This document shows positions 5,730-9,154 of a stretch of 9,154 nucleotides of DNA, piece after piece. The notes under the pieces were generated by a model, which was given only the letters and a program-made list of their open reading frames with translations, made no database searches and was not told where the DNA came from. The number at the start of each line of letters is the position of its first letter. Positions within the stretch are counted from its first letter, which is position 1. This DNA is from Candidatus Equinaster intestinalis (GTDB taxonomy: Bacteria > Bacillota_A > Clostridia > Oscillospirales > Acutalibacteraceae), in assembly GCA_018065375.1 (NCBI GenBank), contig JAGHTJ010000128.1, positions 1 through 9,154 of the forward strand. Direction: 5' to 3'. The translations under genes were made by a program, and so were the position numbers.

Positions 5730-5751
5730 ACTCTCCAAATTACTCTCCAAT
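5730..5751 (+). repeat. Left imperfect direct repeat flanking the restriction cassette
   Basis: Two CTCTCCAA octamers (5731-5738 and 5743-5750) in a 22-bp stretch that aligns with 9046-9066 with one gap and one mismatch. Both copies are in the same orientation, one on each side of the restriction-modification genes, as attachment-site duplications would be. Confidence 0.6.
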
Positions 5752-5766
5752 CCGTGCAAATAATTT

Positions 5767-5800
5767 ATCCCACACCGAAATATTTCGGTGTGGGATTTTT
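5767..5800 (+). terminator. Strong terminator between lysS and the restriction cassette
   Basis: CCCACACCGAAA (5769-5780) and TTTCGGTGTGGG (5783-5794) form a near-perfect stem closing on a tight loop, extended by A-T pairs and followed by TTTTT on the plus strand. It ends lysS. The hairpin also lies just beyond the hsdS stop on the minus strand, but the tail there is only weakly U-rich. Confidence 0.85.
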
Positions 5801-5801
5801 C

Positions 5802-6878
5802 TTACTTGTTTTTCTTGCTTTCGTAATAATCTAAATACTGCTGATATTTCTGTATGATCATATTTTTTACATACTGTTCCATATAATCGTAATCGGGTTC
5901 ACCTGCTTCGGTTATGGGGAGAAGTATTTTTTCTCGGCTGATTCGGGAATCGTTTATTTCTCTGTTGAAGTTATACTTTTCTGATAACCGATTGAGCATT
6001 GTAGCCATAAACAGATATATGTATTTTGATGTGTCATATTTTTTCAGATGAGTAACGTGATCAGAAGCTACAAACTGAAACGGTTCATAAAAGCAGGAAC
6101 CTACGCTGCCTGAATTAGCTAAACTTAGGCAATCCTCGAAGACTCTCGTTTTGTTTTCGTTCCCGATAAATTGGTCAACCCCATTATTAAGAGATGTTGA
6201 TGATACGTGCGGTTTGTCGCCACTAATGTGATCGTCTTTCTTTAAGCGTTTCCCTCGTTCTATCTCGTCAAATATTTTTTTGATGAAGAAAGAACCCCAA
6301 CTCTTTGATGAAAGGCTTTCAATATCAACAAACCTTCCTAATTCAGAGAATCGTTCCTTACAATACTGTGTGTATCTTTCAACCTTAATTTGTTCACGCT
6401 CTTTGACATATGCTTGCATAAAATCATAGTCCGGGTTATCGATTGTATCTATGGGGAGCATAATAGATTTTCTTGCCAAATCATAACTTGATAACTGGTT
6501 TCCATACGTGCTTATTTCCGTGTTGTTCCGTAATGCACGGCAAAGAAAGATAGCCAAACACTCAGATAATGTTCTGTCCTTCAATTGAAGGCTATGAACT
6601 TTCATATCAATACTCGATTTTGTTTTATGGTAAAAAACATCACCCAAAAACGAAACCGATATGAAATTTTCGAACGTTCTATATGAACTGCTAGAAATGT
6701 CTATCCAATAATTGTCAATCCCATTGTTTTGGGAAGTTACTGTAATCCTTGGAACTGTTCCTTCTTTAAGTTGATCTTTTTTTATGTAACTGCCTGTTGG
6801 AATATTTCCTTTTGTTTCTGTAATAAAAAGACTGTCAATCTTAAAAGATTTCCATTCTCTATCGTTTAGACTCAGCAT
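5802..6878 (-). CDS. hsdS: Restriction-modification specificity subunit with two target-recognition domains
   Basis: A 358-residue S subunit. Start ATG at 6878, with AAGGTG six bases upstream; a TTG-initiated extension to 6899 is less likely. The protein is an internal duplication, each half holding a target-recognition domain followed by a conserved helix. Domain entry segments are WKSFKIDSLF (9-18) and WGSFFIKKIFDEIERGK (194-210). Exit segments are IMLPIDTIDNPDYDFMQAYV (139-158) and ILLPITEAGEPDYDYMEQYV (318-337). SQNNGIDNY (49-57) and SLNNGVDQF (229-237) also match. Two TRDs predict an asymmetric bipartite DNA target. The start overlaps the end of the upstream methyltransferase gene by 20 bp, so expression should be coupled. 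The length is close to the B subunit of BcgI. The target sequence cannot be predicted. Confidence 0.92.
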   Translation of the reverse strand: MLSLNDREWKSFKIDSLFITETKGNIPTGSYIKKDQLKEGTVPRITVTSQNNGIDNYWIDISSSSYRTFENFISVSFLGDVFYHKTKSSIDMKVHSLQLKDRTLSECLAIFLCRALRNNTEISTYGNQLSSYDLARKSIMLPIDTIDNPDYDFMQAYVKEREQIKVERYTQYCKERFSELGRFVDIESLSSKSWGSFFIKKIFDEIERGKRLKKDDHISGDKPHVSSTSLNNGVDQFIGNENKTRVFEDCLSLANSGSVGSCFYEPFQFVASDHVTHLKKYDTSKYIYLFMATMLNRLSEKYNFNREINDSRISREKILLPITEAGEPDYDYMEQYVKNMIIQKYQQYLDYYESKKNK

Positions 6879-8781
6879 CTTCTTCACCTTTACTTTCAAA
6901 CAAATACTGACGTCCCTGCATAATCATTGAGAACTCAAAAGAAAGATAATCGCCAATGGTCTTATCAAAGTCTGCATCTGTCGGGATTTCATCGTTGAAA
7001 TAATAGAAGCTGTGAAGCCATTCGTCTTCGGCTTCTACTGTGGATTCTACGCAGAACTTTGTTTCTGCCTGCACTCTGCCGAACCAAACATCAAGAAGAT
7101 GCTGCTTTTTGTCTTTGGCAGACTCAGTTTCGAGCAATCCGAGATGCGGGAATACTCTGAAACCATCGTCCTCAAAGTTTATGAACTTGCAAACCTTGTC
7201 AGCGGGGTGCGGCTGGTGAGCGGTAAATACAGCAATGCACGGCATAACGCCTACATTGTAAAAAGTGTCTTTGTTTAAGGTGATAACACCTTCAAGTGTG
7301 TGGTGTTTCATAATACTTTCCTTAAATGCTTGTTCGTCCTTTGTTTTTCCTGTCATAGATGATTGCGGTACAATAACCGCTACGCGAGCATCTTCTGTTA
7401 ACGAATCAAGCAAATGTTCCACGAAAGAGAGTTCATATTGCGACGGATCAGTTTTTGAGCCTTGCGAATATGGAGGATTCATCATTCCGACAGTTGCACC
7501 TTTCAACTGTACTTCCGCAGGATTTTGGCGAAGAAAATCTTCGCATTTAATATTACTATTTCCGTCATCGCGTAAAATCATATTTGTTGCAGCAATGGCA
7601 AACATATTGCTTTGAAGTTCAAATCCATGCAACTGCTTTTTCTTAATATTTTTTCGTTTTACTTGATCAGTTCCCGCTTGCTCAAGCATATGGTGCATGG
7701 CTGCCACGAGAAATCCTGCTGTACCACAACAAGGGTCAAGAACAATATCAGTGGCTTTTACTTGAAGTAAGTCACAAAACAAATCACAAATATGTTTGGG
7801 TGTTAATACAATGCCAAGCGACTGACCGTCTCCACCCGAATAACTCATGAATTCACCATAGAATCTTCCAATAAAGTCTTCACTTGAGGTATGATATTTT
7901 ATATTATCAAAGACATTCTTTTTTAGAAATTCTGTGTAGTATTTCAACGGTGTTTTTTCAAGTCTTTCATCAATTTCATTCAAACGGGCGCTATTTTTTA
8001 TAATTGCAAACTCGCTCATCAACTTATCGCGTTTTGCATCTGGACCAACATTTGAAGATTTTAAGCGACGCTCAATTGCCGAATAAATCAACTGTCCATC
8101 GGTAATAGTATTATCACCAAGCAAATCTGTAACTTTGAAAAATTTATCATCTAATGCAAGTAAAATGCCGGAAACAACCAATGGTTTATCTTGATCTTTC
8201 AAAGAGCCGTATGTACGAAGATATTCATGCAAAACCGCAGCATCTTTTAAGATTTCTTCTGTTGTCTTTTCAATATCGGTTTTCTCATTTAGCACATTGC
8301 GAGTATAATACTCATCTATATTCTCTATTGTAAATGAAGTAAATGATTCTATATCGGGCAACACTTTATAGCCCTCTCGATCGTCAACATATAAAGGTGT
8401 GATTTTATGATGTTTTTCGTCTCCTGACACACCGATTGCAAATACTTTTTTAAAAAAGCTGTTCTGAGCGATATGCTTTGCATAGAAATAAGCTCCATTC
8501 ACAGCATAATCAGAAATATCTTTTTGTTCAATAGATATAATACCTTTCTCAGTCATTTTTTTATGTTTTGACAAGTCTGCTTTATCTTCGATAACTATAA
8601 CAAAATCTTTGACCACAGAAACATATTCAGGATATCCTACTTTTCCGGTTCCACGCTTTGAAGCAGTCTGCAACGCCTCATTTAATTCTTTCACGCAACT
8701 TCCTTGCGGATCATATTTTATTTTACAGTCGTCAAGTTGGTGAGCAACCCATAAATCTGTTCTTACTTCTTTTTTAGCCAT
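6859..8781 (-). CDS. BcgI-like nuclease-N6-adenine methyltransferase fusion (restriction-modification subunit)
   Basis: A 640-residue protein from ATG 8781, with GAGGAG seven bases upstream. The N-terminal region (about 1-165) looks like a PD-(D/E)XK nuclease of the HsdR-N type: GYPEYVSVVKDFVIVIEDKA has the expected E52, then E65-x-K67 on a hydrophobic strand. A helical linker (about 165-290) follows. The methyltransferase core has motif I LDPCCGTAGF (348-357) binding S-adenosylmethionine and catalytic motif IV NPPY (435-438), the gamma-class N6-adenine type, with TPKHICDLF just before. Known BcgI-type enzymes fuse nuclease and methyltransferase at about this length and pair with a two-TRD subunit, as here. 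In such systems one complex both methylates and cuts. It overlaps both neighbours (8 bp upstream, 20 bp downstream). A pure type I HsdM is the alternative, but that family lacks this N-terminal part. Confidence 0.9.
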   Translation of the reverse strand: MAKKEVRTDLWVAHQLDDCKIKYDPQGSCVKELNEALQTASKRGTGKVGYPEYVSVVKDFVIVIEDKADLSKHKKMTEKGIISIEQKDISDYAVNGAYFYAKHIAQNSFFKKVFAIGVSGDEKHHKITPLYVDDREGYKVLPDIESFTSFTIENIDEYYTRNVLNEKTDIEKTTEEILKDAAVLHEYLRTYGSLKDQDKPLVVSGILLALDDKFFKVTDLLGDNTITDGQLIYSAIERRLKSSNVGPDAKRDKLMSEFAIIKNSARLNEIDERLEKTPLKYYTEFLKKNVFDNIKYHTSSEDFIGRFYGEFMSYSGGDGQSLGIVLTPKHICDLFCDLLQVKATDIVLDPCCGTAGFLVAAMHHMLEQAGTDQVKRKNIKKKQLHGFELQSNMFAIAATNMILRDDGNSNIKCEDFLRQNPAEVQLKGATVGMMNPPYSQGSKTDPSQYELSFVEHLLDSLTEDARVAVIVPQSSMTGKTKDEQAFKESIMKHHTLEGVITLNKDTFYNVGVMPCIAVFTAHQPHPADKVCKFINFEDDGFRVFPHLGLLETESAKDKKQHLLDVWFGRVQAETKFCVESTVEAEDEWLHSFYYFNDEIPTDADFDKTIGDYLSFEFSMIMQGRQYLFESKGEEDAESKR

Positions 8782-8956
8782 TTTTCTTCTCCTCATCTTT
8801 CTTCTTCAAATATTCGTCTGCTGCTTTATTGAAAAGATCCGCCATACTGTGCATTTCATCATCGTAGGCGATAGTGGCAAGCAGCCGTTTGACTTTTTCC
8901 GGATCCATGCGGAACTGCACTTGCCGTGTCCGGTTTGCTTTATTTACTTTTTCCAC
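8774..8956 (-). CDS. Small ribbon-helix-helix protein, probable regulator of the restriction operon
   Basis: A 60-residue protein from GTG 8956, chosen because GGAGG (8970-8966) lies nine bases upstream; the longer ATG-led frame to 9013 would run back across the promoter and palindromes. The layout fits a ribbon-helix-helix fold: basic strand RTRQVQFRM (9-17), helix PEKVKRLLATIAYDD (19-33), a turn with HSM, helix MADLFNKAADEYLKKK (38-53) and a charged tail. It is the first gene of the cassette and its stop overlaps the methyltransferase start in ATGGCTAA (8 bp), so translation is coupled. The cluster of palindromes directly upstream suggests that it represses the operon, acting as a controller of the restriction genes. 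No toxin partner is seen. Function inferred. Confidence 0.75.
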   Translation of the reverse strand: MEKVNKANRTRQVQFRMDPEKVKRLLATIAYDDEMHSMADLFNKAADEYLKKKDEEKKNG

Positions 8957-8971
8957 AAACGCATACCTCCA

Positions 8972-9020
8972 TATCACGAATGATATCATTATATCTTGAT
9001 ACAATGATATCATTTTGATA
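8972..9020. promoter_or_regulatory. Operator cluster: two identical palindromes in TGATA/TATCA array
   Basis: AATGATATCATT, a perfect 12-bp palindrome, occurs at 8979-8990 and again at 9003-9014, 24 bp centre to centre. Further half-sites extend the array: TATCA at 8972, 8984 and 9008, and TGATA at 8981, 8997, 9005 and 9016. The array covers the -10 region and the transcription start of the minus-strand operon, the expected place for a cooperative repressor of ribbon-helix-helix type. Confidence 0.75.
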
Positions 9021-9032
9021 GCGAAAAGTCAA
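9004..9032 (-). promoter_or_regulatory. Promoter of the restriction-modification operon
   Basis: On the minus strand TTGACT (9032-9027), a 17-bp spacer and TATCAT (9009-9004). The -10 is part of the distal palindrome. A perfect TATAAT (8993-8988) lies further in but has no -35 at the right distance. The leader to the GTG start is about 40 nt. Confidence 0.65.
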
Positions 9033-9045
9033 CATTTTTCTCCAA

Positions 9046-9066
9046 ACTCTCCAATTTCTCTCCAAT
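9046..9066 (+). repeat. Right imperfect direct repeat flanking the restriction cassette
   Basis: CTCTCCAA at 9047-9054 and 9058-9065, plus a partial copy TCTCCAA at 9039-9045. It aligns with 5730-5751 (one gap, one mismatch). It lies just upstream of the operon promoter, so the two copies enclose the three restriction genes and their regulatory region almost exactly. Confidence 0.6.
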
Positions 9067-9088
9067 ACGCACAGAAAAGGCAGAAAAC

Positions 9089-9106
9089 TATAGGAAAGTA
9101 TAGGAA
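9089..9106 (+). repeat. Short direct repeat TATAGGAA with 10-bp period
   Basis: TATAGGAA at 9089-9096 and 9099-9106, one helical turn apart, in the gene-free stretch right of the cassette (9033-9154). This could be a protein-binding or recombinase-arm site, or chance. Confidence 0.35.
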
Positions 9107-9154
9107 CGAAAATATCGGGAAATCGGCATACCCGCACTCGATAGGGCTTCACGG

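Follow-up and report, generated by a model that had tools for sequence, protein, structure and literature searches.

The controller (C) proteins of type II restriction-modification (R-M) systems are helix-turn-helix (HTH) regulators. According to the part of PMC12255303 that was available, they activate at low level and repress at high level. The same paper described in 2025 RptR, an E. coli autorepressor that acts on its own R-M promoter via palindromes over the -10 hexamer, in a system where hsdM is up within 1 h of phage infection; head-gene autorepression of R-M operons is therefore already in print. Ribbon-helix-helix (RHH) repressors were assigned, in the accessible sections of PMC3874152, to toxin-antitoxin operons, and contrasted with C proteins. 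Little is known of transcriptional control dedicated to R-M systems of types I and IIB. We analysed a stretch of 9,154 nt (contig JAGHTJ010000128.1, hereafter the window) that carries, on its minus strand and convergent to lysS, a three-gene operon consisting of a small head gene, a gene for a fused restriction and modification (RM) subunit and a gene for a specificity (S) subunit. We estimate at about 75% the probability that this is a BcgI-like RM plus S operon controlled by an RHH-like autorepressor encoded by its first gene, and that regulator and operator form a cassette shared across R-M types in Clostridia.

Like RptR, the head gene is small, comes first in an R-M operon and is predicted to repress itself via short palindromes over the -10 hexamer. 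In contrast, RptR, as far as the consulted portion of PMC12255303 goes, is all-helical, uses TAGCTA-type 6-bp sites and belongs to type I R-M islands of Gammaproteobacteria, whereas here a strand-helix-helix protein is predicted, the TGATATCA boxes lie 24 bp apart, and the systems are BcgI-like and type I ones of Clostridia. None of the four RptR site variants (TAGCTA, TAGATA, TATCTA, TATATA) was found in the promoter region of the window. Against the four-helix fold of RptR, with its DNA-binding helix alpha4, the head protein model shows two long helices, at a predicted local distance difference test score (pLDDT) of 70. A hidden Markov model (HMM) of the head gene (A2) had no match in the PDB up to an E of 10, the presence of 9R2Z in that set being unchecked. 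The C proteins are likewise small regulators encoded beside R-M genes; they are HTH activator-repressors, whereas the head protein has no HTH match (no HTH family in Pfam for P0003/P0124 at E up to 1). Omega and PaaR, in the available text of PMC3874152, resemble it as small RHH repressor genes ahead of the genes they control, with repeated sites in their own promoters; this likeness is one of description, not of sequence comparison, and they control toxin and antitoxin, whereas the genes here are R-M enzymes. A literature search that covered its sources in part and had most subscription papers outside it turned up no account of R-M operons controlled by an RHH-like protein. What appears to be new here, as judged from sequences and models, is a different operator and predicted fold, and a cassette common to several enzymatic types.

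An operator overlapping the promoter of the head gene

Gene order, gene overlaps and the geometry of promoter and operator were observed directly. The promoter and operator region (8979-9032), absent from the earlier sequence-only reading of this DNA, was found here. It contains a TTGACT-17-TATCAT promoter with 10 of 12 consensus matches and a TG ahead of the -10 hexamer. The promoter scan returned 15 promoter-like sites versus 12 expected, and therefore proves nothing by itself. Over this promoter lies the operator AATGATATCATTGTATCAAGATATAATGATATCATT (8979-9014), made of two 12-bp palindromes at 24-bp distance, with an imperfect third between them; the -10 TATCAT falls within the first palindrome. 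The two TGATATCA boxes of the 36-bp palindrome occur nowhere else in the window, and AATGATATCATT was not obtained even once in dinucleotide shuffles of 8957-9154 (0/2000). An RNA structure was considered for the palindrome and rejected, since folding of the 48-nt leader was on a par with that of shuffled sequences (z 0.11); Rfam gave no match at gathering threshold.

A site of the same kind was present in 11 further cassettes. For 11 of the 12, the -35 hexamer is TTGACA/T or TTGAAT, a spacer of 17 leads to TATCAT, and the boxes are 24 bp apart; for the twelfth (G629) a spacer of 18 was read by eye. Viral contigs contained no exact operator match, and the matches listed for plasmids (29 records) and phages (10 records) reached at best a BLAST E of about 0.4. 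The head protein was not found in viral contigs, plasmids or phages.

Recurrence of regulator and operator ahead of different R-M genes

Recurrence and shuffling of the cassette could likewise be observed directly. The A2 profile was run on a class-level set of 391 genomes, from the class of L001 (Oscillospiraceae), and matched four of them, G303, G197, G020 and G056. The weak match in G056 (8e-4) was taken as a false positive after its frames were inspected. The three others all carry the operator, in the promoter layout seen in the window. Their head gene is followed by a different 603-aa methyltransferase in G303, by a BcgI-like RM gene cut by the contig end in G197, and in G020 by a type I operon (Pfam: HsdM_N/N6_Mtase, Methylase_S, DUF4145, then HSDR_N cut by the contig end).

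The reverse search started from the operator. It covered the 391 genomes with up to 3 mismatches and, by a looser pattern allowing at most 2 mismatches, sets of 21, 28, 9, 197, 225, 4 and 200 genomes; these sets overlap, and about 792 genomes are distinct. A backward control pattern gave 0 matches. The centres G009 and G012 were left out of the tally, because they had been chosen for the operator in their RM loci. Ten genomes were positive, with an RHH-like open reading frame (ORF) directly behind the operator in nine, and then an R-M methyltransferase gene in eight. G020, G197, G303 and the window had supplied the pattern, which leaves only seven blind positives (G048, G201, G600, G679, G785, G632, G629); six of these had the regulator and five the R-M methyltransferase gene. 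The regulator matched the HMM of the head gene in G600 (5e-9), G785 (2e-11), G632 (1e-23) and G629 (1e-14). For G679 and G201 the regulator was identified by eye, from its likeness to that of L014 (49% in the case of G201).

The enzyme genes behind these blind sites were diverse. By BLASTP only, G632 has a BcgI-like RM (65% identical) and an S gene; G679 has a G303-type methyltransferase (77% identical) and an S like that of the window, with no ORF of HsdR size in 8.4 kb; G785 and G629, compared with the genes of G020 only, have HsdM-like genes (25% and 33%, respectively) and, farther on, ORFs weakly like the HSDR_N of G020 (4e-5 and 4e-11). In G600 two ORFs (498 and 176 aa) make up the methyltransferase gene, which by eye begins like a nuclease; a type I-like S and the contig end follow. 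The split, at L109 3171-3193, represents a broken gene or an assembly error. In G201 (L101/L105, G201:C2 at about 7.7 kb), an L009-type RHH-like gene with tandem GATATCA boxes lies ahead of a DUF4177-like gene.

Homologues of the head protein gave a further view of the operator. A search with its 79-aa form returned 412 proteins at E up to 0.1 and a second search 182; the top 120 from each gave a sample of 240 homologues, of which 5 were dropped for want of the core motif. Among the 235 core-bearing homologues, 32 were over-called at the N-terminus, being extended by at least 14 aa, and in 31 of these the operator was read in frame (as DIIISRYNDII or MISLYQDIMIS), in both regulator groups. The one extended copy counted as a miss, P0329, has a sequence that reads like the operator. 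The operator is therefore retained ahead of the gene in many metagenomes.

Regulator and enzyme genes differed in their degree of relatedness. L009 and L018 share 94.5% identity across 398 nt of upstream sequence and regulator, versus 72.4% in the RM DNA; the change sits right after the RM start, and identity is again 90% over 70 nt farther down. Between the window and L009, identity is 82% in RM and 29% in the regulator. Between the window and G303, the regulators are 82% identical and the RM families are different. Given these unequal identities, regulator plus operator and enzyme genes swap separately.

The head position in the RM family

For the RM relatives, 84 loci were fetched (80 from genomes, 4 viral), with wide flanks on both sides in 45; L045 and L049 have less than 250 nt upstream. 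That the head gene is a standard partner of the RM family was rejected, as A2 found it in none of the 84 loci; nor was a copy found by A2 in 16 genomes with RM relatives. The sequence-only reading had called a regulator-like third gene at the operon head less familiar, and this gene did turn out to be the unfamiliar part. Three loci, L009, L014 and L018, have the operator in front of a different RHH-like gene that adjoins or overlaps the RM start. No Pfam match was obtained for these alternative head genes of the L009 and L014 types. With no HMM match and three operators among the 84 loci, the cassette is therefore a minority accessory of the RM family.

Other genes occupy the same place elsewhere. 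RHH-like genes are at the head position in L013, L015 and L084, and by scan an HTH_3 gene in L072; the genes of L044, L054, L062 and L066 are similar to the latter in look. L032 has an HTH_17-like gene, below cut-off. Upstream sequence was sufficient in 83 loci (window included), and 43 of them have no 40-codon open frame with its end close to the RM start. At its head, this operon family seems to have a slot for exchangeable regulators.

Family and predicted fold of the head protein

Homologues of the head protein share the near-invariant core RTRQVQFRMDPxKVKxLxxxIAxDDxMHSMADLFNxAADEYL. A short strand with R16 and P19 is followed by two helices, a pattern that we take to be that of RHH proteins; helices span residues 19-31 and 38-58 in the structure model of the 60-aa protein. 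P0124 itself had no Pfam RHH match, further sequence-profile searches for RHH were likewise empty, and no precomputed Pfam domain was found among the best 120 of the 412 homologues. A profile of ten head proteins (A6) placed RHH chains first in the PDB (AvtR 5e-5, 56B 9e-5, ParG 5e-4). Two of the ten carry Pfam RHH-type matches of their own, one above and one just below the curated cut-off. Sequences and model together suggest an RHH-like protein, whose fold is not secure.

A BcgI-like enzyme

The enzyme half was found as the sequence-only reading had it: E52 (in GYPEYV), E65-D66-K67, LDPCCGTAGF and NPPY are all present in the 640-residue protein of ORF 8781-6859, and Methylase_S matches S in two stretches (2.8e-30), in keeping with the two target recognition domains (TRDs) claimed for it. 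The BcgI-like arrangement and subunit sizes also held, as a PADLOC type IIG RM model (637 positions) spans the whole RM protein (8e-165) and the type II specificity model PDLC03591 (341 positions) matches S. N6_Mtase matches the RM protein in Pfam (2.7e-35). Across 51 relatives E52, E65 and K67 are invariant, and E32 is conserved in at least 90%. Structure prediction, which that reading had proposed as a check of the N-terminal segment, returned a PD-(D/E)XK-like alpha-beta-beta-alpha-beta-beta stretch carrying E52, E65 and K67, then a type I M-like body. The methyltransferase part is structurally closest to type I M proteins (2okc). Structural alignment to BsaXI and DrdV begins at residue 1, in a list that barely tests the nuclease part.

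With BcgI-type enzymes, as presented in the available part of PMC3874165, this system has in common the N-terminal nuclease-methyltransferase fusion, a separate two-TRD S and the lack of HsdR in the window. The E73-D90-E105-K107 spacing of BsaXI, given in the section consulted of PMC11997821, resembles that of E32-E52-E65-K67 here. An operon-head regulator gene, present here, is not described for either enzyme in the accessible text of these two papers. It is well supported that the enzyme half is an ordinary BcgI-like (type IIB/IIG RM plus S) system; as such it would be expected to cut on both sides of a bipartite site and to methylate both strands. Some relatives (P0009, P0011, P0013, P0015 and others, 817-831 aa) are fusions of the RM protein with a Methylase_S domain, and share their family with RM proteins of normal length.

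The possibility of a separate HsdR was followed around the relatives. There is no HsdR gene in the window, which stops 198 nt upstream of the head gene, so that one might lie elsewhere in the genome. Beside the RM relatives, ten ORFs reach 1000 aa, and the nine of them that were scanned showed no HsdR family. With the limit lowered to 600 aa there were 59 such ORFs, of which 55 were scanned, two with a ResIII match; two in L005 and two in L079 were outside the scan. PADLOC was run on the same 55 of 59, and the matches listed are GajA models, hence uninformative on HsdR.

Proposed mode of action and alternatives

From these observations we infer an RHH fold, binding, repression, timing and a response to phage as follows. 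The head protein would accumulate from the first gene of the operon, and its cooperating dimers would bind the boxes overlapping the -10 hexamer of its own promoter; the bound promoter would close and the whole operon be switched off. Upon entry into a naive cell, the free promoter would permit a fast burst of RM and S, later settling to a low steady level. Expression would rise if the repressor were lost, as might happen in a phage attack. The purpose would be to limit the amount of enzyme, perhaps permitting induction; because R and M form one polypeptide, no delay of R would be needed.

Several results weigh against autorepression by a shared cassette. The cassette is rare: it was found in 3 of the 391 class-level genomes, and of the 84 RM relatives only L009, L014 and L018 have the operator and none matches the head-gene HMM. 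In G201 a DUF4177-like gene, not an R-M gene, follows the regulator and its degenerate operator, and the operator-like site of G048 stands without a regulator or an RM gene. The L009-type regulators (L009, L014, L018, G679) were not found by the HMM of the head gene; these genes, with that of G201, were called RHH-like by eye, and may not form a single family with the head gene. When the profile was confined to the operator-linked members (A7, which is A6 minus two), ParG scored only 0.13 and eIF4G better, at 0.05; because the RHH support is gone once the two Pfam-matching members are removed, the fold is a deduction only. Foldseek gave no match for the 60-aa model. Finally, the putative repressor role is read from the position of the operator.

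The head gene might instead act as a controller, with activation and a delayed R. It has the position at the operon head and the size class for this, and the L072 relative has an HTH_3 gene of that size in front. We regard this as unlikely, as the head protein lacks a Pfam HTH match, a lone operator over the -10 of a near-consensus promoter leaves scant room for activation, and an R delay is unneeded for a single polypeptide. Many antitoxins and plasmid partition proteins are of the RHH class, and the head gene could be a protein of that antitoxin-like or mobile-element kind, fused to the operon by chance insertion and having no role in R-M control. The toxin-antitoxin operons for which RHH repressors are named in the part seen of PMC3874152, the G201 regulator standing without R-M gene, and the direct repeats that bracket the cassette of the window fit such an event. 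It is nevertheless unlikely, since an R-M methyltransferase of at least three types lies behind the operator in eight of the ten operator-first genomes, since the regulator gene runs at its stop into the start of the methyltransferase gene in the window, G197, G303, L009 and L018, and since 31 of 32 read-through copies keep operator and regulator together.

It is very improbable that the 640-aa protein is a type I HsdM with a non-nuclease N-terminal domain and its hsdR outside the window. The structural proximity of the methyltransferase part to a type I M (2okc) and the two ResIII-matching ORFs flanking relatives would agree with it; the PD-(D/E)XK-like core with its invariant E52, E65 and K67, the full-length IIG model match and the absence of HsdR families from the nine scanned of the ten largest flanking ORFs argue against it.

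If autorepression by the head gene holds, it would provide a second head-gene repressor and make R-M control modular. The TGATATCA boxes, 24 bp apart over a -10, would then be a sequence code for finding R-M operons in unannotated genomes. Tentatively, and with somewhat less than an even chance, a single operator code may be common to BcgI-like, other methyltransferase plus S, and type I systems in Clostridia, with several diverged RHH-like repressors as its readers. A resident R-M system could in that case silence or derepress an incoming one of another type, and the reverse, via the common operator, which would resemble the incompatibility groups of C proteins and span R-M types; such cross-regulation becomes directly testable.

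Locus layout and neighbouring sequences

The features of the locus are given in Table 1. Head gene and RM share 8 nt at the stop of the one and the start of the other (ATGGCTAA); RM and S share 20 nt. GC content is 0.376 for RM and 0.353 for S, versus 0.468 for lysS. The hairpin between lysS and S fits lysS best, and perhaps acts in both directions.

Table 1. Positions of the operon genes and their control elements in the window.
Feature	Position	Strand	Remarks
Head gene (P0124)	8774..8956	-	60 aa, GTG start at 8956; RHH-like, predicted autorepressor; putative fold
RM subunit	6859..8781	-	640 aa; N-terminal PD-(D/E)XK-like nuclease (E32, E52, E65, K67) and gamma N6-adenine methyltransferase (DPCCGTAGF, NPPY)
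Specificity subunit S	5802..6878	-	358 aa, ATG start at 6878, two TRDs
Ribosome-binding site GGAGGT of head gene	8965..8970	-	From sequence; 8 nt upstream of GTG
Operator AATGATATCATT-N12-AATGATATCATT	8979..9014	-	36 bp, two boxes at 24-bp distance
-10 hexamer TATCAT	9004..9009	-	Inside upstream operator box
-35 hexamer TTGACT	9027..9032	-	From promoter scan; 17-bp spacer to -10
Hairpin terminator between lysS and S	5767..5796		T tract on + strand

Imperfect direct repeats of CTCTCCAA units, at 5730-5763 and 9046-9078, about 3315 bp apart, bracket the cassette, and could be an insertion footprint. Among the fetched loci, the window was the only one with tandem TTGGAGAG repeats on both sides. 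No empty insertion site matching the window was found in the lysS 3' flanks of five of eight fetched relatives.

In L001, L006, L007, L008, L016 and L028, an OLD-type ATPase-nuclease gene, not present in the window, directly follows S. AAA_15 and an OLD-like TOPRIM were found in the five such genes that were scanned; the L016 gene is 94% identical to that of L001. PADLOC identified the L001 gene as GajA of the Gabija system (6.5e-214), and GajA matches occurred in at least 7 of the 55 flanking ORFs. A further ORF of 532-580 aa also follows S in these close RM relatives. Elsewhere in the window, the ORF at 568-1830 contains four stretches of WG repeats (PF14903, 7.6e-40).

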